A stretch of DNA of 64,000 nt. Origin: Campylobacteraceae bacterium. GTDB lineage: Bacteria > Campylobacterota > Campylobacteria > Campylobacterales > Sulfurovaceae. Both the position numbers and the translations under genes were made by a program. The notes below the pieces were generated by a model. It was given only the letters and a program-made list of their open reading frames with translations. It ran no database searches and was not told where the DNA came from. The stretch covers positions 1-64,000 of the forward strand of contig JALWLW010000019.1 of the NCBI GenBank assembly GCA_027081065.1. The letters run 5' to 3'. Below are positions 19,201 through 34,434 of this stretch, piece by piece (positions within the stretch are counted from its first letter, which is position 1; every line of letters begins with the position of its first letter).

Positions 19201-19716
19201 TTATAGTTTTTGTAGTGTTCTTCTGTGAAAAGTAATGTTTCTATCGCTATTGGAATCATCAAAATCTTTATAGGTAATATAGGTATCAACAACCAATGAA
19301 ATTGTTCTATCAATCCCACTGGCTAAATCATTTGTCCATGTTGCTGTATTTGTAGCATCTGATGCTGTTCCTACAGTACCATTGGCTAAAATGGTTTGAG
19401 TGCAACCATCAAGTAGTCTATCATTTCCTAAATATTTGATGTTTATTAGAATGTCATAGCCACTAGTGGCATCACCAAAATGGTCAGTAAAAGTTGTGAG
19501 ACATGTATTTTTATTGGTGTTGAGTACGTTAAATACAGCCAACTCAGTATAGCTTTTTGCTAAAAGTGCTGCTTGTTCTTTTTGATACTGTTGTGTTGTC
19601 TCTTTAATCGTTTTTCCTGTGACATTCATAATAAGAGCTGTAACAGTTGCCATAATTACAATAACAGCAATCGCTGTCATCATGGCAAATGCTTTTTTAT
19701 TTTGATGGTTCATCAT
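19201..19716 (-). CDS. Minor pilin-like protein, MshP/PilX type
   Basis: A 171-residue protein with a prepilin-like N-terminus: basic leader MMNHQNKKA, then a hydrophobic helix beginning FAMMTAIAVIV. The residue before the putative cleavage site is alanine rather than glycine. Position +5 of the mature form is threonine, not the usual glutamate, as in MshP and GspK-like subunits that sit at a pilus tip. The mature part has two cysteines in TCLTTF and GCTQTI. It is the last gene of the cluster, overlapping the preceding one by 4 nt. The MshP assignment rests on size, helix and gene order. Confidence 0.75.
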   Translation of the reverse strand: MMNHQNKKAFAMMTAIAVIVIMATVTALIMNVTGKTIKETTQQYQKEQAALLAKSYTELAVFNVLNTNKNTCLTTFTDHFGDATSGYDILINIKYLGNDRLLDGCTQTILANGTVGTASDATNTATWTNDLASGIDRTISLVVDTYITYKDFDDSNSDRNITFHRRTLQKL

Positions 19717-20618
19717 CGTATTATCGCCTTTTCCTTACAAGTACTAATATTAAAAGCTTGTCCAATATTTTCTGTAGCACATAGTTTTAGTTGTATGATA
19801 CCACCACTTTGACTGAATTTGAAAACAGAGATATTTTTAATAAGCGTTTTAACTGTGGACTGACCATTATAGGTTTCACCTAACCATGGTTGATAATTGT
19901 AATGTAGATCCAAGTCATAAAGTCCATCTCCATCTGGATCTTTGGGTACTAAAGCATAAGCAGACCATGCTAACTTGTAGCGTTCACTTATAACTTTAGC
20001 TTTAATGGTATCTTGAAATGAAAAACCTGTTGCATTATTTTCTGATACTGCATAGATGCAATTTCTATTATTATTAACTAGACCCATGCATGACCCATTA
20101 ACTATATCACCTTCTCCTGTTCTAGGCTGAAAGATGACAGCTGGTCTTTGAAATCCAGAACCTGTAAGTCCAACCTCTTGATTGGATAAATTTTTAATAA
20201 TTGTATCGGCATTACCTAACTGTGAGCCAGGAGTATCAAAGAAACTTTTTGTAGCCGTTTCATAATTAGCTATACCACTCCAATAAGGAGTTGTATCTGC
20301 TGCAAAGCTATCATTATCGTAACCTATCCATTCTAAAATAGTTAAATCAGCATCATTAGCAAGGTCAAGTGCTGTTAGTAATTTAAAGTTCGCAGGATTG
20401 TTAGGATCTTTTGCAATGGCTGAATTGATGATACTGTAGCTTAAATGGTTAACAATTTGATTGATAGCTAACTCTGTTTTAGTACTGACATTATAAACAG
20501 CTCGTTGGGTAATGTAGTTCTCATAGACTTGAACAATGATTTGTGATGAGATAGAGGCTACAATACCTAAAATAACTATCACAAAAATAAGTTCTATCAT
20601 TGAAAAAGCTTTTCTCAT
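19713..20618 (-). CDS. Minor pseudopilin, MshO-like
   Basis: A 301-residue class III-signal pseudopilin: leader MRKA, then FSMIELIFVIVILGIVAS with glutamate at mature position +5 and a long hydrophobic helix. The globular part is large for a pilin, with cysteines in NGSCMGLVNNNRNCIYAV and near the C-terminus (KLCATENIG, STCKEK). It is placed between an MshD-like and an MshP-like gene, overlapping one by a single base and the other by 4 nt, matching the mshD-mshO-mshP order in Vibrio and Shewanella. Function as a tip or priming subunit is inferred. Confidence 0.8.
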   Translation of the reverse strand: MRKAFSMIELIFVIVILGIVASISSQIIVQVYENYITQRAVYNVSTKTELAINQIVNHLSYSIINSAIAKDPNNPANFKLLTALDLANDADLTILEWIGYDNDSFAADTTPYWSGIANYETATKSFFDTPGSQLGNADTIIKNLSNQEVGLTGSGFQRPAVIFQPRTGEGDIVNGSCMGLVNNNRNCIYAVSENNATGFSFQDTIKAKVISERYKLAWSAYALVPKDPDGDGLYDLDLHYNYQPWLGETYNGQSTVKTLIKNISVFKFSQSGGIIQLKLCATENIGQAFNISTCKEKAIIR

Positions 20619-21367
20619 TATGGTAATTCTCTTCCACTAATTGAGTAAGTACCTATATTACAAGAGAATGCTTCAAATGTAATGTTTTTTTCTAATTCAG
20701 GTGTATTAACTGTATTAGATGTTAAATTGACGCTTATTGCTTTAATATTACTAAAAAGAGTTCCTGCTGGAATATCATCTGATACATTATTGTCTTGTGT
20801 ATATCGAACATTAGTATTAATATTAATATTTGTATCAACATACTCTCCTACATCAGCAGTAGTACTTTCGGTATTAAAAAGCATTAATCCAAAAGTTGAA
20901 CCATCGTAATCATCAACATCATCAAATTTTGTATGGTCATTGGATTCATTTACATCATCTGCTCCAAAATTTATGGATGGTGTTAAAGAACTAACCCCAT
21001 TACTTGTCGTTCGTCCAAATACTCCATCAAGTCCAATAGGTTGAAAAGAAGTATGATGAGAGTTATTGTTATTATGGTGGTTATTGTGATTACCAGAACC
21101 AGTAGTCCCACTACTAGAAGCTCCTCCAGTATTTAAAATGGCTGATGCTCCTGATTGTGTATTATTTTCATCCCAATGCATTGATAATACAATAGCTGTT
21201 TGAGATGCAGCTGCTACAATAGCCTCTTGTTGTAGTGCAACATTAGAACTTTTAATTGACTGTTGTATGAGCATGGGTGCTGACATTAATACAATACCCA
21301 TGACAACAAGTGCAAATATCAGTTCTATCATAGCTATACCATTCTTTTTTTTAATTTTTCTTACCAT
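20618..21367 (-). CDS. Minor pseudopilin, MshD-like, with Asn/His-rich insert
   Basis: A 249-residue pseudopilin with a textbook prepilin peptidase site: [10 protein letters not shown], then [16 protein letters not shown] with glutamate at +5. Residues about 85-107 form a low-complexity loop of asparagine, histidine and serine ([13 protein letters not shown]), unusual for a pilin and possibly metal-binding or length-variable. The C-terminus has a single cysteine in FEAFSCNIG. It overlaps the end of the giant gene by 7 nt and the next pilin by 1 nt, so all are very likely one transcript. Confidence 0.8.
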
Positions 21368-24300
21368 GCTATTTTTCCATTATGCTCAATCATCCCATTA
21401 AGACTTCCATTATTGTCTCTCATAAGGTTATAACCTATATCCCCATCAGCATTAGGTGAAATTCCTGTCATGCCTCCTACAGGTGTCATGGTAACAAAAT
21501 AGGAAGGATTTAGTTTAAACTTTAGCCATTCATTTGTAGTTATTTGAATTTCTGCTGTAACTTTTTCAGTTATTTTATCAGCTACATGTGATGTTTTAAT
21601 TTCGTTCATATCTCCATTAACCTCTATATAGTTAGTTGTGATTTTTGTTGTATTACTTTCAAGGTTTGAAACTACTCCTTCTGTTGTTGAGTCATGCTCT
21701 GTAGCCAGATACCAACCATTAGAAGTTTTTAGACCATTTTCAGTTATATTATGTTCATCAAGTTGCATAGTTTCTCTACACCAATCTTGGGTGATATCAT
21801 TGGTTCGACAATAAACTTCTACAAAAAGAGGAGTGTTAATACTATTTTTGTTAGTCTCTGGATAATGCTCTAGATACGATGCAACTCTTGCAAAATAAAA
21901 AACTTTTGTTTTATTAATTTCTCCTGAAGCTTTAGGTATCTTATTTTCTCCTTCTCGCTTTGCTTCAAACTTACTTACATTTAAATCTAAAGAAACAAAG
22001 TTTACTTTTATAGGATTTGAAGGTTCATTAAAAAATCTTTCTATGTTATATAAGATACTTACACTCATAGTTCCATTATTCTCATCTAAAAATTCTCTAG
22101 AAATATTAAGGTCACTTAAGGGAGTAACTGTATTACTATTAATTGTACTTTCATTAGCTTGATTTATTTTAGTATTAAATTGTACAATTTGTTGAGGTAT
22201 TATTTTAGTTCTTTCTTTTGATATACTATTTTTTATTGTCTTTGGAATCGTATATTCTGTTCGGTTTGATTCTCCTTCATCTGAGAGGAATGAAAAGTTT
22301 AAACCTAAAGGTAGGCTAATATCATCTTCTATACAACTTGTTGTAAAGTTACTCAATACTTTACCTTTTTCCCCTAAGGCTTTAATAATACTATCTAACT
22401 GTACAGCCATCGCTGTTGATGTATTTAAATCACTCATATAAAGGTAATCTTTATTGTTGTGAATATTTGATAAAGTGTTATTTATATCAAAAATATATGG
22501 GTGAAACTTTAACTCTATATCATGATGAGTGCTATCTAAATTAGAACTAATGTTACATCCTGATTTACTGTTCCCATCTACAGAAATAGAAGCATCATCT
22601 AAAATACATCCTCCGTTCATATCTATTGCTGTCCAATTGTTATCTAAGATAGTTAACCTATATGCTCCATTATTATCATGAGAAAAAGGTTTAGTGACGT
22701 TTCCATCTATAAATTTATAGTTTAATTTATGCTCATTAGTATCATTACAAGCTATTTTATCTTCAAATACTAAAGAAGCATTTAACTCTTCATACTCTAT
22801 CTGTCCATAGTTTAAAGCTCTATTCTGACTATTATATTTTGTTGCAATGATTTCTACTTTATAGTCATGTTCTGCTACTAGGTTAAGAGGTGTATTAATA
22901 TCTTGATTATTAATACGATAACTAACTGTATTGTTATTTTCATCTTTATCCATAATATTAATACGATAACTAGCAGGTCTTATGGCAAAATTATCTGAAT
23001 ACCCATAAGTCTCTTGGTTGTTATTAGTATATTTCTTTGTATTATAGTCAGCTTCATTGTTATATTGTCCATGTATTAATGTACCATTCTCATCTAATAA
23101 ATAAGAAATTTTAAAAATAGCGTTTCTCGTTGCACGTTGAATTGCTAAATCATCAATCGCTGTTTGATTAAATCTTGAACGCTCATCTGAAAGATATAGA
23201 TAAGTTGTTCCATAAATAACATCATGTATTGTTGTACTATTTTTATCTATTAATTCAATTTTTACGGTTATATCTTCTATGGCATAGAGGTTCTTTTCTT
23301 CATAAGAGACAATAGCATAGTTAAAATCTCGTCCTGAAATTTGGGTATAAAATGATTTTCTATTTTCTTCAGTATCATTATTTACAGTATTACTATTGGT
23401 TCGCTCAATACTAAGTTTGGGTGCATCATCATTGATAATTGTTCCTACTCCTTGGTCATCCTCAAAAATAAGTGTTGAGGGTAGTGTAAGGTTTACATAA
23501 AAGTCTTCATTATCTTCTATAAGTTTATCACCTACAACTTCTACTGTAATAGTTTTTTGTGTCTCTCCAGCATTAAAGGTAATTAACCCATTTTGCTCTA
23601 AATAATCATCAATAACTATGGCTGTACCATCACTTAGATTATAAGAAACATTGGTTGCCATTGGAGAAGATGAATCTAAAGAAACAACAAATGTAAACTC
23701 GGTTGTTCCACTATCTCCTTCTTTTTTAGTAATATCATCAATACTAACTCTTGGTGGTACTATACAACCTTCTGCTTCTCTAGGTGCTTCATCAGTAAGA
23801 GCATTCCAATTTTTACCAGCATTTTCATTTTCATATATTTTTTGAATAGTTTCATCTGAAAGGGTTGAATTAAAAAGTTTTACTTCATCAATTTTACCTT
23901 TAAATCCATAAGCTTTATAACTATTTCTTACACCTATCGTTAATATTTTATTACTAACCAAAGGTTCTTTTGTATAAGTATATGTACCTATTTTTTGACT
24001 ATTGATGTACCAAGCTAATGTTTTAGTTGAGTTGTCACGAGTTATTACAACATGGTTCCATTGTCCTTGTATTACCCTTGCATTTCTTGGTTCAATCATC
24101 TCTTCCCATGCACCATCACCATGATAAAAGCTAATATACCCATTAGGTTCCATAATAAGTTCAAACTCATTATTGTAATGCTTAAAGAGGAGACCTTGTC
24201 TACCTTTTGTAATATCTTCTGGGTTTATCCATAGTGACCATGAGGCATCAGCGTTAAGTTGAATTTTTTCATTATTTGGTATTTCAACAAAATCATTGTC

Positions 24301-27300
24301 CCCATCAAAATAAGCAGTACGACCAATTTCCCCATCTTCAGCTGTATTTGCATTACCTTTGGCTGTACCATGTAAATTATTTCCACTACTGTCTTTCACT
24401 TCACCTTCTGTTCCATTCCAATAACATTCATCAAAACGATACTCTGCAACAAGATTAATCAGATTAAAACTATTATTATCTCTATAGTTGAAATCGACAC
24501 TCATAGGAGTAGCATTTGAACCATCAGCTTGGGTATCATTATCACTATCTTTTAATGTAAAAATTGAATTTTCATACGCCATACCATTAACATCATCTAT
24601 GCTATCATCTTGTTCATGTGTATTTGAATTGTCTAAGCCGTTCTCTCCAACCTCTTCATTGGTTCTACCATCATTATCTGAATCGTTATTTCCAAGTCCA
24701 GACTCTTCAATATCAAAAATACCATCATCATCAGAATCTAAATCAAGATAATCAGCCGTACCATCACCATCTGTATCTACAGGAGTTAGACCACCATTTA
24801 GTAAGTTTGCATAAGCAGTGTCTACCCCAGCATCATTAAAAACTTTATTCGGTTTAATATAGTTTTGTGTACTCTGAGCCTCAATATTATCAGGAATTCC
24901 ATCGTTGTCTGAATCTAAGTCTAAGTAATCAGCAATACCATCACCATCATTGTCACAAAAAGTTTGTCGAATTCTAATGTCATCAAGGGCAAGGTCATTT
25001 CCTCCACCACCTGGGGCATTATTTGCTAGAACAACTTGAATTTGGCTATTGCCTTCAGGGTTAATTGAAAGGGTATAATGATTCCAAACACTATTTTCTG
25101 GAATGTCACCTGTATTAATAATTTCACCAACTTGCTCCCCATTCATGTTTTCAAGTTTAAACGAAATATTAGGAAGAATAATATTACTCCCTGCTTTTAC
25201 AACATTTAAAATCCATAAGTCAACTGTCATGTTAGCACGTGGAATTACCGAATAGGTACGTCTATAAAATTCATCAGGTTGCAGTGAAGCATTCACCACC
25301 ATCATACGCCCAGCATCATTGCCTGTATGGTCACCTATTTGACTCCATGTTCCAAAGCTAGAAGCATCAGGGTTTGGATGTTGTACAATGGCATATTCTC
25401 CATCATTAACATTGCTATTTCCTTCCCAATAGGTAATGCCTTTATCGACTTGACAACTAATATCGCTACCACTTCCATCTTCATAACAGTAGGTAGTATA
25501 AGGGGTTGTTGTTCTTCCACCTGTTCCAAAGTCGTCAAAACTCATTAGGGTCTGAATCCCTTCGGAACAACTTCCATATTCTATGCTATCTAAAATTCCA
25601 TCGTTATCTTGGTCTAGGTCAGTTACATTACTTGTGATAACATTATCTCTATAATCAAAATCAACACCCATTGGAGTAGCACTTGAACCATTTAAAGAGG
25701 TGTCATTGTCGGTATCTTGAAGTTTAAATTGGCTGTTCTCATACGCCATACCATTAACATCTGTTAGAGTATCGTTATGTTCATGCGTTGCAGAGTTATC
25801 TAAACCATTTACACCAATAGGTGCATTGGTTCTTCCATCACCATCAGCATCATTATTTCCAAGTCCAGACTCTTCAATATCAAAAATACCATCATCATCT
25901 GAATCTAAATCAAGATAATCAGCTGTAGCATCTCCATCTGTATCTACAGGAATTAGACCACTTGTATAGGCAGTATCAACACCATTGGCATCAAATACTT
26001 TATTTGGTTTAATGTAATTTTGTGTACTTTGAGCCTCAATATTATCAGGAATTCCATCATTATCTGAGTCTAAGTCTAAAAAGTCAGGAACACCATCTTC
26101 GTCGTGGTCAGCTACCTCTTTCACTGAAACCATGTCAATGTCAGCACCTGCAGAAAGGTTTCCTGCAGGTGGTGTTGCTGAGAAGTCTAATTTTGTCTCA
26201 CTAGAAGTTGCTACAAAAAATGCTTCATAGTTGTACCAAGTGTTTGGTCCAGCATATTCAAACTGCTCTCGTCCACCTGCTGTTTCTCTTAATGTTTCAT
26301 TTGAAAGCATAGTGTTATTAGTAGCATCAATTACTTTCATGGTAAAGACAATTGGTTCACCTACCTTATGTCCTACATCTTCACCCCACCAAAATGAAAA
26401 TCTATAAGTTTTACCAGGAATAGTTGTAATGGTTTGGGTTAAATGGTTTTGAGCTACTATTTTTTCTGAACCACTGCCATAAACTTTTAAATTTCCTTGC
26501 AGGTCAATATATTGTGTTCCATAGTCAGTAAGTGCAAAAGAGTTACCTTCTACCCAACAATCTATGTTTGATGTATAGTTCCAGTTTGCTATTTGATTGT
26601 TATTGTAATCGTCTCCTAAAAATGTACCATCTCTACCTGTAAAAGCATTAGGAAATCGTGTAGCATCCATGCAGTCATCAGTTTCAAATGAAGGGTTCTG
26701 AACCAAATTAGGATAGTCTCCAAATTCAATTTCATCTAAAATTCCATCATTATCTTCATCTAAATCTGTAGGTGTTCCCCAAGAGATGGCTGAGTCGTCA
26801 TTTAGAATTGTTCCTGTAGCTGTTGCATTCCCAACAATAGCTCCTTGAATGTTAGAAATAACTATTTTAAATTTCTCATCATCTTCAACTACTTCATCAC
26901 CGATGATTGGAACTAGAATTGTATAGGTTTGAGTATCTCCACTTAATGTTGCAGAACCTGAAATATTTGTATGGTCACTTGGTGCTGTAGCATTTTTTAT
27001 TACTGTATTGCTATCTCCATCAAAAACTTGGTAGTCAAATGTTACATTTGAATTACTGTTTTTATCTAAAGCCACAGTAAATTCTAGGTTTTTTGTTCCT
27101 GAATTTCCCTCTTCAATCTCTTCATTTGAAATGTAAAGTTTTGGAGGTTGAATTACCTCAACATCAGAACACATTGCCCCATCATTTTTATTTACAGCAT
27201 CTGTATTTGAAAATAGAACTGCTTCAGCAGAGTTTTGTACATCAATTTGATAAATACCTCCTTGATTATTATAGACATAGAAAAATCCATGTTTATCAAA

Positions 27301-28839
27301 AAAAGAAGCACCATATTGTCCACTCTTATTAATTCCTGTATCACCCTTAAAAGTTACTGTTCCATTAGTTGGATTAATTCTATAGAGTTTACTATCACCT
27401 TTGGTTATAGCATATAAAAAATCATCAACTGGATTAAATGCCCAATCATGAATATCTAACTTTTGTGTTAGATGAAAGTCACGTATTTGTGTAAGATAAT
27501 TGGCTGAATTAGGGTCTAAATCAATGACTATGACATTTAAATTATTTTTACCACCTTCTTTTAAGTACATATGTCCATTGTCATCAATATCGGCACTGTA
27601 AGAAGAGAAACCATTTAAACTAGGAACTTTAAACTCTTTACTAACATAAGAGCCATCACTATCTTTTCCTATACGTAAAAGTGTTCCATCTCTTTTTATC
27701 TGGTCGTATCCCCAAATAAAATTATCTTTTTTATTGTAACCTGCTGCATTTAATTTATTAGTACTAAGTGTACTATTATGAAGACTCATTATACCTGTTG
27801 TGAGATTTAAAAGACTTACTTCGGTTGGTACATCATGAAACATAAAGGCTGAATTTTGACAGCTAATAGGTAGTTGTAGCTCTTCATCAACAAAATAAGA
27901 AGCAACCCCACCATAAGGGTCAGCTGTATCTCCTCCTGTGTTTCTTGGATACGTTGAAATGTCAGTTAATACATCGTTAGCTCTACTAACATCACGTCCA
28001 AAATAAGAAAAGCCATAATAGGTTTGATTATGAGATACACCTAAGTCTTCAAGCGTGACAAATGCCATTCCTAAAGCTTCATTGGTTGTTTGAATGTACC
28101 AAGGTTTTCCTTGCTCTCCTGAAGTATTATCCACATAGAACCCTAGGTTTTGATGATATATACTTGTATCATCGGGAAAGTATATGTTTGTCATTCCATA
28201 GCGAATGTTTGAAGCATTATCATAATTTTTATGCACCATAACTAAGGGACCAAAAGAGGTAGGATTATTATTTGCATCAATACTTAGAATAGCAGCAATT
28301 TGAATATAATTATTTCCAGATTTTTCAGTAACAACATGTCCTGCTTTTGAAAGGTCATTTACATTTGATGGAGCAGTAATTCCTTGTGGCGAAATAAAGT
28401 CAACCCTTTCCACATTTTTAGCTGTGTGTCCTACATTTCTAAAAACATCTAAAGCACCAACATTAATAATACGTCCACCCATAACCTTTGCCATGTCACA
28501 GTTCCCATTTGTATTTGGAAAAGAAGCTGCCATTTGACGATTGTTGCCATTAAATTTTTCAGCAAAGAGACCACAAGGTTCTCCTGTAGCATTCACATTA
28601 TTAACCCTTCTGATTTTAACAATAGGTGCATCTGAGACATAATTATAACGATGGTTATTATATTCAAATGCATCAATAACAATGTTTTCTCCTTGACCCC
28701 ACTTATGTTGATGACCCTTAGCCGTATAAATAGCACTAGTAGCTGCTTCTTTATGTGCAAAAATTTTAGAAACTTCACCTTTTGAAAAAGAAAGTGAGAA
28801 GAGAAGAGTTAGCAAAAATAAAAATCTTATTAATATCAT
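21361..28839 (-). CDS. Giant MshQ-like exported adhesin (2492 residues)
   Basis: Secreted multidomain protein with a signal peptide (about 1-19). Regions in order: a unique N-terminal domain (30-320); a propeller-like DUF6923-type region (326-556); Calx-beta (566-683, [16 protein letters not shown] end); a jelly-roll-like domain (700-910); a thrombospondin-type-3 calcium block with [15 protein letters not shown] (911-1064); a second jelly-roll-like domain (1076-1293); a second, nearly identical type-3 block (1296-1453); LamG (1463-1680); Calx-beta (1693-1803); and a C-terminal module shared with the upstream giant (1806-2492), ending in KIAW. LamG plus the F-x-IRP motif of the tail recalls MshQ. 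It overlaps the pilin gene by 7 nt. Confidence 0.85.
24480..24951. repeat. Duplicated type-3 repeat block, copy 1
   Basis: This stretch of the giant gene is nearly identical to 25647-26105. Each copy encodes a thrombospondin-type-3 calcium-binding block with [10 protein letters not shown] and [19 protein letters not shown]. This copy carries a 12-nt (four-codon) insertion relative to the other, in the [15 protein letters not shown] region. Confidence 0.8.
25647..26105. repeat. Duplicated type-3 repeat block, copy 2
   Basis: Partner of the block at 24480-24951, about 1.16 kb away. Long runs are identical at DNA level, for example the part encoding [20 protein letters not shown]. The jelly-roll-like domain between the copies differs from the one beyond this copy, so the duplicated unit was probably jelly-roll plus calcium block, with divergence of the former. 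Confidence 0.8.
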
Positions 28840-28995
28840 TATTTAAATCCTATTATTAATATATAATTAATAATATAATATAAAAACTCTACTGTAGCAA
28901 GGTTTAAAATATTAAAAAATACATAAAATTTAAATATAAATTAATTTATTAATAATAATTTAAAATATTAAAACATAAATTACTTACTCCTTTTA
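28840..28995. other. Very AT-rich gap between the two giant genes
   Basis: These 156 bp are almost pure A and T. They contain a 15-bp direct repeat (TTTAAAATATTAAAA at 28903-28917 and 28959-28973) and several overlapping TATA-like sequences on the minus strand. The second giant gene may therefore have its own promoter or an H-NS-like silencing site. An AGGAT ribosome-binding site lies about 8 nt before its ATG. Confidence 0.4.
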
Positions 28996-31900
28996 TTACC
29001 AATTCATTTTGCTAGATGAAGTAGTTTGAGGGGTTATTTCTAGAAGGTGACCAGTTTTACCAACACCTGTCCAAGAACCTTTTGCATTAATACATTTTAG
29101 TGTATATTCTGAGGGATGAAACTCTAAAACAGGGTTAGTATTAATTGTAATAATTGAACTAGGATTAACACAGTTATTAAATTGAGGCATAACCATATCA
29201 TTTGATCCTTGATCTAGCATAATATTATTATTTACTCCTACTATAAGATTCCCATTTTCTCTAATGCTAAGTTGATCTGGATTATCTATGAGTCCTGTAA
29301 CATTACCATCTAATTGTCCATTATGATTACTAGAAAGATGCCATCCATCTTGATCTTTTGTTGTTCCTAAAGCATTACTGTTAGTTAATACATTTCTGTC
29401 TTCACAATAGTTTTGAATATTTGTTTTACAGAAAAAGACAACATGTAAAGGAGTCCTAATAAGAGGATCATTACTTATATTTACTGCAGGATACTCATTG
29501 AACTTCGAGACTACTTTTGCAAAGTAAAAGTTTTTAACATTGTTTGAAAAGTTAGTAAACCCACTTGGTGTGTGTATATTCGATATAATATTGATTTTAT
29601 CATAAGCTTTAGAGTTCGCATCATTTGAACTTACTTCGATACTATTGAATGTTATTTCAATAGGATTAATAGGTTCACTTAAGTGTTTATTTAAGTTGTA
29701 TCTCATATCAAGTTCTACCGTTCCATTTTTTTCATCTAAAAACTTGTCTGGGGTAATGGTAATTGAACCATTAAGAGTATTTAAGGCTTGATTTAGTTCA
29801 CTAGTTGGGTTACTAGAGCTTGAATTGTAATTAATATATCTAGAAAAATTAACATTAGTGCCTAGGATAGTTTGTATTTGTTGGTTAGTCCCTTCAATAG
29901 ATAGACTAGTAGCATTTAGATCTAACTGAATATCTTTTGCGACACAGCCAGTCGTAAAGTTTTCAGTTGTTCGATTATTCTCATTTTTGGCTAGAACTTC
30001 TCCTGTGAACTGTACAGCAACATTATGATAGTTATTATTGAGTTCAGACATATAGATAAAATCTGGATGACCACTATCTGGTAAGGTTTCTAAGAGAAGA
30101 TTTACTTCAAAATGATCAGGTTGAAAGTAAACATTTATGTCACTAATTTGTGAAATATTACAGCCTGAAGGGCTATTAAAATCTGAAGATGTTGAAGCAT
30201 CGTTACTTATACAATCTCTACCATTTTGGTCAACAGTTGTCCATGTACTGTCTTCTATAATATTAAATTGATATTCTCCCACATAAGGATTAGAAAAATT
30301 ACTATCTCTATAAATTCCATTGTTTAAAGTAATACTTTTATTTTGGTCACTGTTATTACGGCAAGTACCAACAGTGTTAAATTTTAGATTTCTATTTACT
30401 GTAGCATCGTATCCTTCTGCAGCAACAAAAGCAGGATAGTTTATAATATATTTTGTTGCTTTTACACTTAAGTTGTAGTCATCATATCCAGCAGCAAAGT
30501 TGATAGGAGTAGGAGTATTGGAGTTAACTCTTTCTTGTGCACCATCAGCAATACTTACGTAAAACTTTTCTGGACGAATTGAAAAATTATCTAAAGCGTA
30601 ATCTCTACGTATTAGAGGACATAAAGAGGGGGTACTAAGACAATCTGCTTGAATAATATTTCCATTTGTATCAACACCATAGCTTATGGCAAATCTTGCA
30701 TTCTTTGTAGCAGGAAGTGCTTGTAAATCTTCTGCAGGAATTGTGACATCAATTCTTTTTAAAAGAGGATTGTCTAAAATATGGGCAGAACGTTGATAGA
30801 GTGTTGTATTTGTGTCCATGTCTACTAATTCTACTTTTATACTTATATTGTCTATCTCTTTTTCTGCAGACATATCTTCTTCATAAAAAACAATAGAGTA
30901 GTCAAAGTCTCGACCTACTATTTGTGTATACCAAGCATTACGCTCAACACTATTGATAGTCTCGCTTCCACTATTGGTTCGTTCAATATTAAATTTTCCT
31001 CTTAATGGTTGAGAAGCAGACCCAAACTTAATAGCATAATCTTCAACTTCTCCATCTATGGCACTCTCTTCAAAATCAAGATTAGCAGTTGATGAGTATC
31101 TAAATCGTATATAGGTTAGTTGGTTTTTAGTCACAGTAGAAGGGATATTAAATGAAATAGTATGCGTACCAGCTGTGAGTGCTTGTGCTGTAATGATTTT
31201 ATCACCAACAAAATTACCATCAATTCCAAAGTCAAGCCATGCATTTAAATAACCATCTTTAGAAACAGTAATATTTAGTTCTTGTGTTCCATTTACGTCA
31301 AAATATGAACCATTAATATCACTACCATCTACAAAAGTAATACCATCTTCATCATCAACTCCATTACTATCATCACCATCAGCATTTATGCTATCAAAAG
31401 GGTTAATATCATGGTCAATTTCACTTCCCATGAAAATTCCATTAGCAATGTTATGTTTAGGCGAACCATAAGAACTAGGGGCATCTCCATAATCATTAAA
31501 TATTAAAGCAGCTTGTAAACAGTTTGCTCCATCATTAAATGAGGCTTGTTGAGAATTAGATAAAAAGAGTTTATTACCCGTTGTTAAATCAAATTCAAAG
31601 AAACCATTTCCTTTACTGTCATTAGCGAAGAAACGACCATTTTTATCTGAAAAAGTAGAGTCAAACTGATAGCCTGTATGGGCTGAACCAATAGCTGTAA
31701 CCACTCCTGTAAGCACATCAATTTTGACAAGTTCTCCCCCATCAATAATCCCATGTAAGTATTTACCATCAGGAGTAAAAGAGAAGTCTAGTAGTGAAAT
31801 GGCTCTACTTAAATTAATATCACTAACCGTTTTATCTGAAAGCTTAATTTTAAAAATTTTATCATAATTTTGACCTGGACCCGACACGTAGTATTCATCA

Positions 31901-34434
31901 CCATAAATGGCACCTGCAAAGAGTTGTTTTGTGCTTAAGAAGTTAGGTAAACCTGTAATATTTCCTAAACTAATAACTTTCCCTGTTTTTGTTAATTTTA
32001 GAAGTTCTTTAAAATAGAGTCCAAAAATATAGTTACTAGTGTTAACATCTCCACTATCGGCATAGGCAAGAGCATTGTAAAGTTTAGTCTCACCAGCATC
32101 ATCAACAACATTAAATGCAAAAGGATTTTGCGTAGTATCAATTTTATGTAACCACATCTTTCCACTTGCTCCAGAACCTCTTTTGATGGAACTAGAGAGG
32201 TACATACTAGAGTCACAAACAAAAGGGTCTTCACTATGGGCATCATCATTAAAAATTATAATTTCAATAGAGTTCTCAGTTGAGAGTGTTAAGCCATTTG
32301 GATTTAAAAGTTCAATATAAAAGCTTTCATTAGGCTCTATATTTGTATCACCTTTTATTGTTACTGAAAACTCTTTTAAATATTCACCTGCATTAAAAGT
32401 TACTGTTTGTAATGGAATTTCTTGATAGTCATTGTCTATAACTTCAGCTGAACCATTTACAGTTCGATATTGAACTGTTACATTATCTTCTGTAGTATTG
32501 GTATCGAGTTGAATAAAAAATGTAAGATTCGTATCACTAGTATTCCCCTCATCAATTTCTAATATGGGTGCAGAGATAGAGACTTTTGAAAAATTACCAT
32601 CATCATTAACAATAATTCCCACAGGGCTTCGTGTGCCTGAAGTACTTAAATTCTGTTCATTAGTAATGTAGATATTAAACCGTTCATCATTTTCTATTTT
32701 TGTATCTCCATTTATTTGGATAGAAATAGTAACATTAGTCTCACCTCCAGAAAAAACATGCGTGGTAGTAGGAACAGTAATATAATCGCTTCCATTGGTA
32801 TCTATGTGCTGAGTATAGTACTCAAAAGATGAATTTGGAAAAGCAGGTTTATCCAGTGTAAATGTGAAGTCTAAAGTTTTTTGACCAACATCACCTTCAT
32901 CAATGCTCCAAGTGTCTTGGTCAACCGACATGATAGGGTAAGAGCCGTCATCATTTAGAATATGACCTTTAGCTGTGTGACCATAGACTCTAAGGCGTTG
33001 TTCATTTGTAATTCTTAGATTGAAAATTTCATTATCTTCTATGTTTGTATCGCCATTAACTTTAATGGAGACAGTCACATTTCTATCTCCTGTAGGAATA
33101 TTATAGGTTGTTGAAATAGGAACATAGTCATTACTCTCATCTGTATTTACATCTTCTGTATAGTAATCAAAAGATGCCCCAGCAACAGCCGGTGCATCAA
33201 GGGTAAAGGTAAAGTCTAAATTACGTTGAGAACTGTTTCCCTCAACAACATAAAAATCAGTAGTACTCATGTCTGAACCAAAGCCCATTCCTGGGTATTC
33301 TCCATCATCATTGATAATCTCTGCTTCAGAGTAACCAGCACCAATAATAAAAGAACTATTAGAAATAACCAATCTTACATTTTCATCGTCTTCTACTTCA
33401 TTATCTCCAATGATTGGAATATTAATAAGATGTTCGCTAACACCTTCTTGAAAAGTAACGGTATTATTAATAGTTGTGTAGTCATCTCCTGCTGTTGCAG
33501 ACGTAGAAGAACCATCTTGTGAAGTATAGTCAACCGTAAAACTTGGTTCTCCTATAGGGAAATCTTTTGTTAAATAGATTTTACATTGAATATTATTACT
33601 ATCACCATTGTTTCCCTCATTAGAATCATTACACGAAACATCAACTTTTATGGCATCATCATCATTAATAGTTACGATAGCTTCACTATCGGTAACTGTT
33701 CCTACAGAAATAGAATCAATAATGATTTTAAAATTTTTACTAACTTCAGGAGTAAAATCTCCTTTAATGGTTACAGGAATAGGCACACTATTAACACCAG
33801 CTGGAACATTAATAGTATCTGTTATACCGACATAATCACTACCTGAGGAAGCAGAAGCATCTTCAGTATGGTAGGTTAGGGTTAATGCAGATGGCGTATT
33901 TTGATTAAAATAGGCAGTTACTTGAATGGGTTGGTCATCATCTGTTTCTGTAACACTTTTATTATAAAATCTATCAAGTTTAAAGGGTTGTGCATCATCA
34001 TTAATTATTGTTCCTACAGCTTTTCCCGTTCCTGAAACAGCATAACCACTGGTATTTGTACTAATTTGTACATAAAAATATTCATCAGTTTCATAAATAG
34101 CATCATCTAAAATATCAATTTCTATAGTTTTCGATGTTGTACCTGAATTACTAAAAAACCATATTGCAGGAGTAAACATGTCTGCACTATCTTTAGCTAT
34201 ATAGTCATTGTTCACTACCTTAGCTGTTCCATCTATGGTTTCAAAACCAATTCGTACAGGAGAAAAAAAAGAAAGAGGAAGAGCATCAATAGTAACGGTA
34301 AAAGTCATCTTTCCTGTTGATTCATTGGCTGAAGCATTTGAAATAGTTATGTAAGTAGTAGCTTCATCAGCATATAAAAAATCTGACAAAGAGAAAGTCA
34401 ATAATAGAAATAGTTTTATAAAAGTTTTAAACAT
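28996..34434 (-). CDS. Giant Calx-beta/GEVED exported protein (1812 residues)
   Basis: Secreted surface protein. The signal peptide starts at the ATG at 34434 (MFKTFIKLFLLLTFSLSDF); a GTG at 34464 is in frame but less likely. It carries six tandem Calx-beta repeats (about 28-735), each with an E-x-N/D-E motif and most ending in NDD. A DUF6923-type propeller (739-975, with KIDVLTGVVTAIGSA) and a GEVED domain (979-1135, LDFGIDGNFVGD and DGEVEDY) follow. The C-terminal module (1139-1812) is homologous to that of the other giant, with DNFSIRPEKF, CxxxDIQLDL and FLDEKNGTV. It ends in KMNW. It heads the pilin-like cluster and diverges from bamD. Confidence 0.85.
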   Translation of the reverse strand: MFKTFIKLFLLLTFSLSDFLYADEATTYITISNASANESTGKMTFTVTIDALPLSFFSPVRIGFETIDGTAKVVNNDYIAKDSADMFTPAIWFFSNSGTTSKTIEIDILDDAIYETDEYFYVQISTNTSGYAVSGTGKAVGTIINDDAQPFKLDRFYNKSVTETDDDQPIQVTAYFNQNTPSALTLTYHTEDASASSGSDYVGITDTINVPAGVNSVPIPVTIKGDFTPEVSKNFKIIIDSISVGTVTDSEAIVTINDDDAIKVDVSCNDSNEGNNGDSNNIQCKIYLTKDFPIGEPSFTVDYTSQDGSSTSATAGDDYTTINNTVTFQEGVSEHLINIPIIGDNEVEDDENVRLVISNSSFIIGAGYSEAEIINDDGEYPGMGFGSDMSTTDFYVVEGNSSQRNLDFTFTLDAPAVAGASFDYYTEDVNTDESNDYVPISTTYNIPTGDRNVTVSIKVNGDTNIEDNEIFNLRITNEQRLRVYGHTAKGHILNDDGSYPIMSVDQDTWSIDEGDVGQKTLDFTFTLDKPAFPNSSFEYYTQHIDTNGSDYITVPTTTHVFSGGETNVTISIQINGDTKIENDERFNIYITNEQNLSTSGTRSPVGIIVNDDGNFSKVSISAPILEIDEGNTSDTNLTFFIQLDTNTTEDNVTVQYRTVNGSAEVIDNDYQEIPLQTVTFNAGEYLKEFSVTIKGDTNIEPNESFYIELLNPNGLTLSTENSIEIIIFNDDAHSEDPFVCDSSMYLSSSIKRGSGASGKMWLHKIDTTQNPFAFNVVDDAGETKLYNALAYADSGDVNTSNYIFGLYFKELLKLTKTGKVISLGNITGLPNFLSTKQLFAGAIYGDEYYVSGPGQNYDKIFKIKLSDKTVSDINLSRAISLLDFSFTPDGKYLHGIIDGGELVKIDVLTGVVTAIGSAHTGYQFDSTFSDKNGRFFANDSKGNGFFEFDLTTGNKLFLSNSQQASFNDGANCLQAALIFNDYGDAPSSYGSPKHNIANGIFMGSEIDHDINPFDSINADGDDSNGVDDEDGITFVDGSDINGSYFDVNGTQELNITVSKDGYLNAWLDFGIDGNFVGDKIITAQALTAGTHTISFNIPSTVTKNQLTYIRFRYSSTANLDFEESAIDGEVEDYAIKFGSASQPLRGKFNIERTNSGSETINSVERNAWYTQIVGRDFDYSIVFYEEDMSAEKEIDNISIKVELVDMDTNTTLYQRSAHILDNPLLKRIDVTIPAEDLQALPATKNARFAISYGVDTNGNIIQADCLSTPSLCPLIRRDYALDNFSIRPEKFYVSIADGAQERVNSNTPTPINFAAGYDDYNLSVKATKYIINYPAFVAAEGYDATVNRNLKFNTVGTCRNNSDQNKSITLNNGIYRDSNFSNPYVGEYQFNIIEDSTWTTVDQNGRDCISNDASTSSDFNSPSGCNISQISDINVYFQPDHFEVNLLLETLPDSGHPDFIYMSELNNNYHNVAVQFTGEVLAKNENNRTTENFTTGCVAKDIQLDLNATSLSIEGTNQQIQTILGTNVNFSRYINYNSSSSNPTSELNQALNTLNGSITITPDKFLDEKNGTVELDMRYNLNKHLSEPINPIEITFNSIEVSSNDANSKAYDKINIISNIHTPSGFTNFSNNVKNFYFAKVVSKFNEYPAVNISNDPLIRTPLHVVFFCKTNIQNYCEDRNVLTNSNALGTTKDQDGWHLSSNHNGQLDGNVTGLIDNPDQLSIRENGNLIVGVNNNIMLDQGSNDMVMPQFNNCVNPSSIITINTNPVLEFHPSEYTLKCINAKGSWTGVGKTGHLLEITPQTTSSSKMNW

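Follow-up and report, generated by a model that had tools for sequence, protein, structure and literature searches.

The 64,000-nucleotide stretch analysed here (the window: positions 1 to 64,000 of the forward strand of contig JALWLW010000019.1, assembly GCA_027081065.1, from a Campylobacteraceae bacterium) carries a cassette of two giant genes and three small pilin-like genes that probably constitutes the minor-pilin and tip-adhesin set of a type IV pilus of the mannose-sensitive haemagglutinin (MSHA) type, the machine of which would be encoded elsewhere in the genome. A preliminary description of this DNA had already read these genes as a Campylobacterota version of an MSHA-like minor-pilin cassette, and this reading is supported by the homology of the giants to DUF6701 proteins, by the conservation of the gene order and by the presence of an MSHA machine in relatives. 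All five genes lie on the minus strand, in the order giant 1 (positions 28996-34434, an open reading frame (ORF) of 1812 amino acids from its ATG, or 1822 from a GTG located 10 codons upstream), giant 2 (21361-28839, 2492 amino acids), pil1 (20618-21367, 249 amino acids), pil2 (19713-20618, 301 amino acids) and pil3 (19201-19716, 171 amino acids). The two giants are separated by 156 nucleotides. The stop of giant 2 overlaps the start of pil1 by 7 nucleotides on the same strand (21361-21367, ATGGTAA), pil1 and pil2 overlap by 1 nucleotide (TAATG) and pil2 and pil3 by 4 (ATGA), which bears out both the described order of five same-strand genes and the overlaps of 1 to 7 nucleotides among the last four. 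The 7-nucleotide overlap was found at 39 of 53 giant/pil1 junctions.

The giants differ in their N-terminal modules and share their C-terminal region. The Pfam scan showed six Calx-beta stretches and a GEVED domain in giant 1, which also has a segment corresponding to the DUF6923 of many relatives and an N-terminus that looks, by eye, like a Sec signal; in giant 2 it showed DUF6923, two Calx-beta domains, a MAM domain and a LamG domain. TSP3-like DxDxDGxxD repeats were matched 11 times in giant 2 (shuffled mean 0.04) and 0 times in giant 1; of the two giant Calx-beta/TSP3 proteins announced previously, the Calx-beta part thus stands for both and the TSP3 part for giant 2 only. Comparison of the two giants showed that their last ~640 residues are common (32% identity over 634 columns, E 9e-75) and, on this alignment, both are members of one family. 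The C-terminal region of giant 1 is an Ig-domain, DUF6701-like region, and the AlphaFold2 model of its last 673 amino acids had a mean pLDDT (predicted local distance difference test) of 89.7. A protein search with this region listed 117 relatives, the window's own included, and those named by organism were Sulfurovum, Epsilonproteobacteria or "bacterium"; the source of the window looks like a relative of Sulfurovum.

DUF6701 (PF20419) is a family that we take to be the C-terminus of MshQ. An hhalign comparison of 42 window-type C-termini, a profile that includes both window giants, with 14 DUF6701-positive C-termini gave a probability of 100 and an E of 4e-57 over 539 columns reaching the last residue, while the negative controls gave 0.1 (reversed), 0.0 (column-shuffled) and 0.2 (N-terminal Calx-beta profile). 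By this profile-profile comparison, the C-terminal region of the giants is homologous to that of the DUF6701-positive proteins, and the MshQ/DUF6701 relationship sought in the giant C-termini was recovered even though there was no direct Pfam match. DUF6701 was found in 17 of the 298 sampled Campylobacterota genomes (16 over the cut-off). Among the 15 DUF6701 loci fetched, 8 had a pil1 orthologue directly downstream and 11 matched the hidden Markov model (HMM) of the window-type C-terminus. We place the Pfam DUF6701 model at the edge of the window-type clade.

The three small genes are a predicted prepilin set in an MshD/O/P-like order, the second with a GspJ fold. With the Pfam N_methyl model, pil2 (MshO position) scored over the cut-off, pil1 (MshD/PilV/GspI position) just under it, and pil3 (MshP/PilX/GspK position, C-terminus RRTLQKL) gave no match. 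Alignments of 20 rows each, window included, showed that the glutamate of the prepilin position is invariant in pil1 and pil2 and missing in pil3; the earlier description had given prepilin-type N-termini to all three genes and the lack of this residue to MshP. An NCBIfam scan, which among the pilin relatives covered those of pil1, gave weak matches below the cut-offs to PilV (11/20), ComGF (12/20), ComGE (11/20) and GspI (8/20, best E 0.0039), and to GspJ in 1/20 at an E of 0.12. The comparison with MshD/O/P covered the prepilin signatures and the order of pil1 to pil3, which agree. Of 837 pil2 homologues, 120 were listed, and none of these bears an MshD/O/P name; several pil2 homologues are named "type II secretion system protein" in public records, a name that is probably misleading. 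In some single-giant loci (L033-L036, L049, L051, L061, L071 and L075; here and below, L and G numbers are our handles for loci and genomes) pil3 has a further pilin-like gene, the fourth, behind it.

Scanning of named genomes found 138 relatives, from which 79 loci were returned, all titled as Campylobacterota or, for two, only as "bacterium". We classed the 98 giant ORFs of the window and these loci, which were selected by the giant. The order giant-pil1-pil2-pil3 was found for 51 of the 98. The others were followed by pil1-pil2 and a contig end (4), by pil1 only at a contig end (1), by another giant (16) or by no downstream pilin (14), ended near a contig end (2) or ran off the contig (10); contig ends cut 17 giants in all. 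The giants without pilins include those of L003, L006, L009, L013, L014, L021 and L040, and many are of the giant-1 type. The number of giants per cassette was one, two or three, with three in a row on one contig (L011/L023). Matches to pil2 were found in 273 of the 298 sampled genomes at E <= 0.001, a level at which the shared prepilin helix can suffice, and strong matches (E <= 1.1e-46) in 131. In the reverse test, starting from pil2, 18 of the 20 genomes fetched from these 131 had the order giant-pil1-pil2-pil3 (the giant of L169 scoring only 20 bits, and L162 and L163 being near-identical), and two (G036 and G252) had no giant adjoining the pil2 set. Wherever giants were found beside a pil1-pil2-pil3 set, they were upstream of it. 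The upstream position described for the giants therefore holds, and is what is usual among these genomes rather than something peculiar to the window; the number of giants, two in the window, varies from one to three. The arrangement appears to be kept across much of the phylum, and because the gene order is conserved in relatives, chance is an unlikely source of the five-gene arrangement.

Genomes of relatives encode a machine of the MSHA type. G001 has a two-giant cassette (L005) and, apart from it, an operon (L136) that lies next to era and has the order PilM-like, J, K, MshL, AAA ATPase, N, X, GspE/PilB-class ATPase and GspF-class platform, in which J, K, N and X, having no NCBIfam match, are named by position. 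Its MshL scored 273 bits (cut-off 250), and the AAA ATPase, whose TIGR03015 match is weak, adjoins MshL at the MshM position. The genes mshE, mshG and mshM with mshL are given as mandatory for MSH systems (PMC6668835); genes of these four types were found together in G001, and the same run was found by HMM in other loci. Machine runs of the G001 type were also present in G020 and G017, and in G001, G017 and G020 the cassette and the machine are at separate loci. The MshL-type secretin (TIGR02519) was matched in 30 of 30 cassette genomes, in 24 of them over the cut-off and in two (G014 and G023) just below it; it was over the cut-off in all five close relatives, two of which belong to these 30. 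Peptidase A24 (prepilin peptidase) was found in 26/30 and PF00437 ATPases in 30/30 cassette genomes. MshL was over the cut-off in 219 of the 298 sampled genomes, and among the 20 listed of the 27 MshL-less genomes, none belongs to the set of 131 with strong pil2 matches. The MSHA machinery that had been looked for was thus found (MshL, and the operon beside era), in a test made on the genomes of relatives and not on the window's own.

A single-locus organisation, not present in the 64 kb of the window, was found in 5 of 8 fetched second copies (L144, L145, L146, L148 and L149), where giant-pil1-pil2-(pil3)-pil4-I-J-K-L-M-N-E is contiguous, except that pil3 was not called in L144 nor K in L149. 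The giant is separated from the pilins by two genes in L147 and L151. L150 (6560-16622) has three giants in a row ending in INW, with no neighbouring pilins. As regards the major pilin mshA, two short pilin-like ORFs lie in L142, beside the second machine of G017. A compact MSHA-like operon with its own giant, pilins and machine coexists with a stand-alone cassette in five genomes.

Comparison of the C-terminal ends of the giants showed a short conserved tail, which we propose, by analogy, to be a docking address for the minor-pilin tip. The tail ends of giant 1 (SSSKMNW, 28999-29019, minus strand) and giant 2 (HNGKIAW, 21364-21384, minus strand) are candidate docking tags by their conservation, and the last ~26 residues of giant 1 are disordered in the AlphaFold2 model. 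Tryptophan is the last residue in 92 of the 98 distinct giants; of these 92, 89 have R/K at -4, 83 have I/L/M/V at -3, 58 have R/K at -5 and 46 have N at -6. The core is [RK]-[ILMV]-x-W-COOH, and N-[RK] often stands before it. The six exceptions (L060, L063, L067, L068, L072 and L079, five of them Sulfuricurvum loci and one titled Epsilonproteobacteria) end in DYxPA[IT]R, that is DYxPAIR or DYxPATR, without a terminal tryptophan. Tryptophan was also the last residue of 18/18 giants found through pil2 and of 11/14 DUF6701-positive giants, of which two end in FR and one in GE. We considered whether the terminal tryptophan could be a by-product of the 7-nucleotide overlap with pil1, and this was ruled out, since 27/27 giants not directly followed by pil1 end in W. 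The giants adjacent to or near a machine end in GVKxFR or GIRLFR in 7/7 loci. In 5/5 genomes in which both kinds of cassette were found (G017, G223, G060, G082 and G174), W is the last residue of the stand-alone giant, and the machine-linked giant closes with FR; this pairing may alternatively mean that each giant has descended together with its own pilins. A search for other cargo with the tag, made with a strict DNA pattern in six genomes, gave 22 places, only two of which end an ORF of >30 amino acids, both of them giants (G174 and G310); this test is weak, as in the other four genomes the giants themselves escape the pattern, and its reversed form, used as a control, hit about as often.

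In a tree of 80 complete C-termini, for which an arbitrary root was set on Sulfurimonas loci, 34 form a clade (local support 1.0) made up of two groups: 15 mostly pil1-proximal giants of the giant-2 type (0.89) and 19 mostly upstream or orphan giants of the giant-1 type (1.0). With one window giant in each group, the tree suggests an old tandem duplication with both copies kept; the support of some inner nodes is low, however, and in L022, L001 and L007 the two copies fall within one group. The tandem giants of L050 (1139-6241 and 6404-11716) are 99.0% identical over their last 2301 nucleotides and, outside this shared end, have no blastn match and 34% protein identity. Those of L001 (5976-11531 and 11617-15795) are 96.7% identical over the last ~2070 nucleotides, with only a partial alignment (27-38%) outside. 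Both loci are contigs of metagenome-assembled genomes, so an assembly error is possible for the shared C-termini. The two pairs give the impression of a base that is conserved and heads that can be replaced, by head renewal or by gene conversion.

In the mechanism that we propose, pil1, pil2 and pil3 would form a tip complex that primes the filament, and the giant would be exported by Sec, dock on this tip through its flexible C-terminal tail, as the secretion signal of the type IVb pilus (T4bP) does, and pass the MshL secretin with the growing pilus. It would then stand on its Ig-like stalk as an exchangeable adhesin, giants 1 and 2 being alternative heads for the same tip. The tip location and secretion priming are what we infer, and adhesion and calcium dependence would follow from the domain types. 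In V. cholerae, loss of mshQ is reported to lower surface MSHA, with pili that still retract (PMC7096442); a tip adhesin that also promotes assembly fits these data and the lectin-like, calcium-type modules of the giants. More tentatively, and without quite favouring it ourselves, we suggest that the giants of Campylobacterota MSHA pili are interchangeable heads, plugged in through an address tag at the C-terminus, that every set of minor pilins recognises a tag of its own ([RK]-[ILMV]-x-W-COOH for stand-alone cassettes, GVKxFR-COOH for machine-linked ones), and that tandem giants renew their N-terminal binding modules on a conserved stalk.

It is possible, though we think it rather unlikely, that the giants only ride the minor-pilin tip through the secretin and are released as soluble or surface proteins, like TcpF and CofJ by T4bP. 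The docking logic has been published for TcpF-TcpB: according to PMC9565799, the flexible peptide docks in the trimer of cognate minor pilins, and one aromatic residue in it is critical. As proposed, the tail of the giants would work like the peptides of TcpF-TcpB and CofJ-CofB, which are flexible, terminal, dependent on an aromatic residue and specific for the cognate minor pilin (PMC9565799). It differs in being C-terminal rather than N-terminal; the tail is known here from conservation and predicted disorder only, and no sequence relation is claimed. The giants without a downstream pilin also suit secretion, whereas the effect of the V. cholerae mshQ deletion on surface MSHA suits a part in the tip or in priming and, like the frequent 7-nucleotide overlap of giant and pil1, speaks against mere release. 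The same pilin-less giants, with the two pil2-picked genomes lacking an adjacent giant, are what would be expected if the genes were chance neighbours, the giants being independent surface proteins and the pilins serving something else; this is strongly disfavoured by the order kept in 51/98 giants and in 18/20 pil2-picked genomes, and by the overlap.

That the cassette is instead a GspI-J-K tip of a type II secretion system (T2SS), with the giants as substrates, we consider improbable. The GspJ fold of pil2, the T2SS-class secretin matches also found in many of the 30 cassette genomes and the names of several homologues favour it, but the fold does not discriminate MSHA from T2SS. The GspH-K profile hits that would have spoken for such a system were absent: no Gsp profile was over its cut-off for the window pilins (best scores 13 bits for GspK, 12.2 for GspH and 14.2 for GspG, against cut-offs of 130, 80 and 88.85), which sets them apart from GspI-J-K (XcpV-W, EpsI-J), and Pfam gave no T2SS family for pil2 or pil3 in 20 rows each. 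With its 171 amino acids, pil3 has no room for the large extra domain of GspK. Of 30 ATPase loci, 12 were matched by the pil1-3 HMMs, with no score above 22 bits and in each case with an ATPase of the ~500-amino-acid kind taken for T2SS; beside MSHA-like machines the scores were far higher (52-107 bits for pil1, 124-153 for pil2 and 79-98 for pil3). If their assemblies are complete, G020 (267 bits) and G022 (277 and 203 bits) have the cassette without a T2SS-class match; in G020 (cassette L055) the MshL-type match is the single secretin match, and this genome would therefore have no T2SS to serve its cassette. The DUF6701 link of the giants also speaks against a T2SS. A canonical type IVa pilus with a tip complex of the PilY1 type, in place of an MSHA pilus, we regard as very improbable. 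Such a complex has a similar general plan, with a large multidomain protein encoded with minor pilins, and shorter PF00437 ATPases of PilT-like size are present; however, neither giant had a Pfam match to the PilY1 family at E<1, the G001 machine has MshL over the cut-off next to an AAA ATPase that occupies the MshM position, and the machine-linked cassettes adjoin an MSHA-like run.

Several observations weigh against an MSHA-type tip cassette, our preferred reading. The window itself has no match to a machine gene, and the evidence for the machine comes from the genomes of relatives only. Nine machine-gene HMMs built from relatives gave no match at E<0.01 in the window's 94 ORFs of at least 70 amino acids; this upholds the earlier statement that the machinery is absent from the window for these nine genes, the prepilin peptidase and the major pilin, also listed there as absent, not having been searched for. 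Published MSH systems are almost exclusively single-locus, unlike here (PMC6668835). The three pilins were not matched by sequence to gammaproteobacterial MshD/O/P, and 14/98 giants have no downstream pilin. Pfam DUF6701 had no direct match at E<1 in either window giant, was found in 3 and not in 4 of 7 related giants rescanned with Pfam, and in L113 and L121 matched in the genome search and not on the Pfam rescan. In both window tails the fit to the tag is limited to its core, with S and G rather than R/K at -5. G002, G011 and G026 have T2SS-class secretin matches only, G025 has a split match, and G203, G219 and G322 combine strong pil2 with weak MshL matches. The giants of L144, L148 and L149, which have no HMM hit, are assigned by position and C-terminal end.

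Compared with the V. cholerae MSHA locus, the machines of the relatives have a similar order, like I-J-K-L-M-N-E-G, the minor pilins are likewise flanked by one very large protein, and the locus has no machine peptidase. Here, in contrast, the giant is first and not last, there are one to three giants, and the cassette is usually away from the machine. The tail comparison covered the giants, and the C-terminal end of gammaproteobacterial MshQ lay outside it. The V. cholerae locus is described as two operons, mshI-F and mshB-Q (PMC4624765). MshQ alleles affect host specificity in V. fischeri (PMC4094467), and a 2022 paper still placed MshQ among the MSHA parts of unknown function (PMC9815625). 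MSH systems have been predicted in Epsilonproteobacteria by Denise et al. 2019 (PMC6668835), that is, in the same phylum and with the same machine class; the main text of that paper, figures and supplements aside, does not mention mshD, mshO, mshP or mshQ, and its passages on these systems describe neither their tip nor the cassette. In Sulfurovum indicum, an MshL gene is reported to be up-regulated on elemental sulfur (PMC10045233). Among the titles and abstracts listed in searches of open-licence papers on MshQ, MSHA and minor pilins, none describes the cassette, and a search of these papers for DUF6701 found none. What appears to be new is a probable MSHA tip cassette in which the giant comes first, which has one to three exchangeable heads, mostly lies apart from its machine and has a candidate C-terminal docking tag.

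The Pfam scan of the window covered 15 of its 63 ORFs of at least 100 amino acids. The neighbours of the cassette look ordinary: one encodes a YfiO/BamD-type lipoprotein, and the others are, by eye, a ribosome-hibernation-factor-like gene and Lon. A promoter scan gave a result below the shuffled mean and a terminator scan one near it.

For a phylum to which many sulfur and vent bacteria belong, the cassette is a candidate for the missing MSHA tip. Should the tag prove real, the choice of a giant adhesin and its carriage by the MSHA filament would be a question of a few C-terminal residues, and if pili with interchangeable giant heads exist as suggested, one cell would gain a choice of surfaces to hold.

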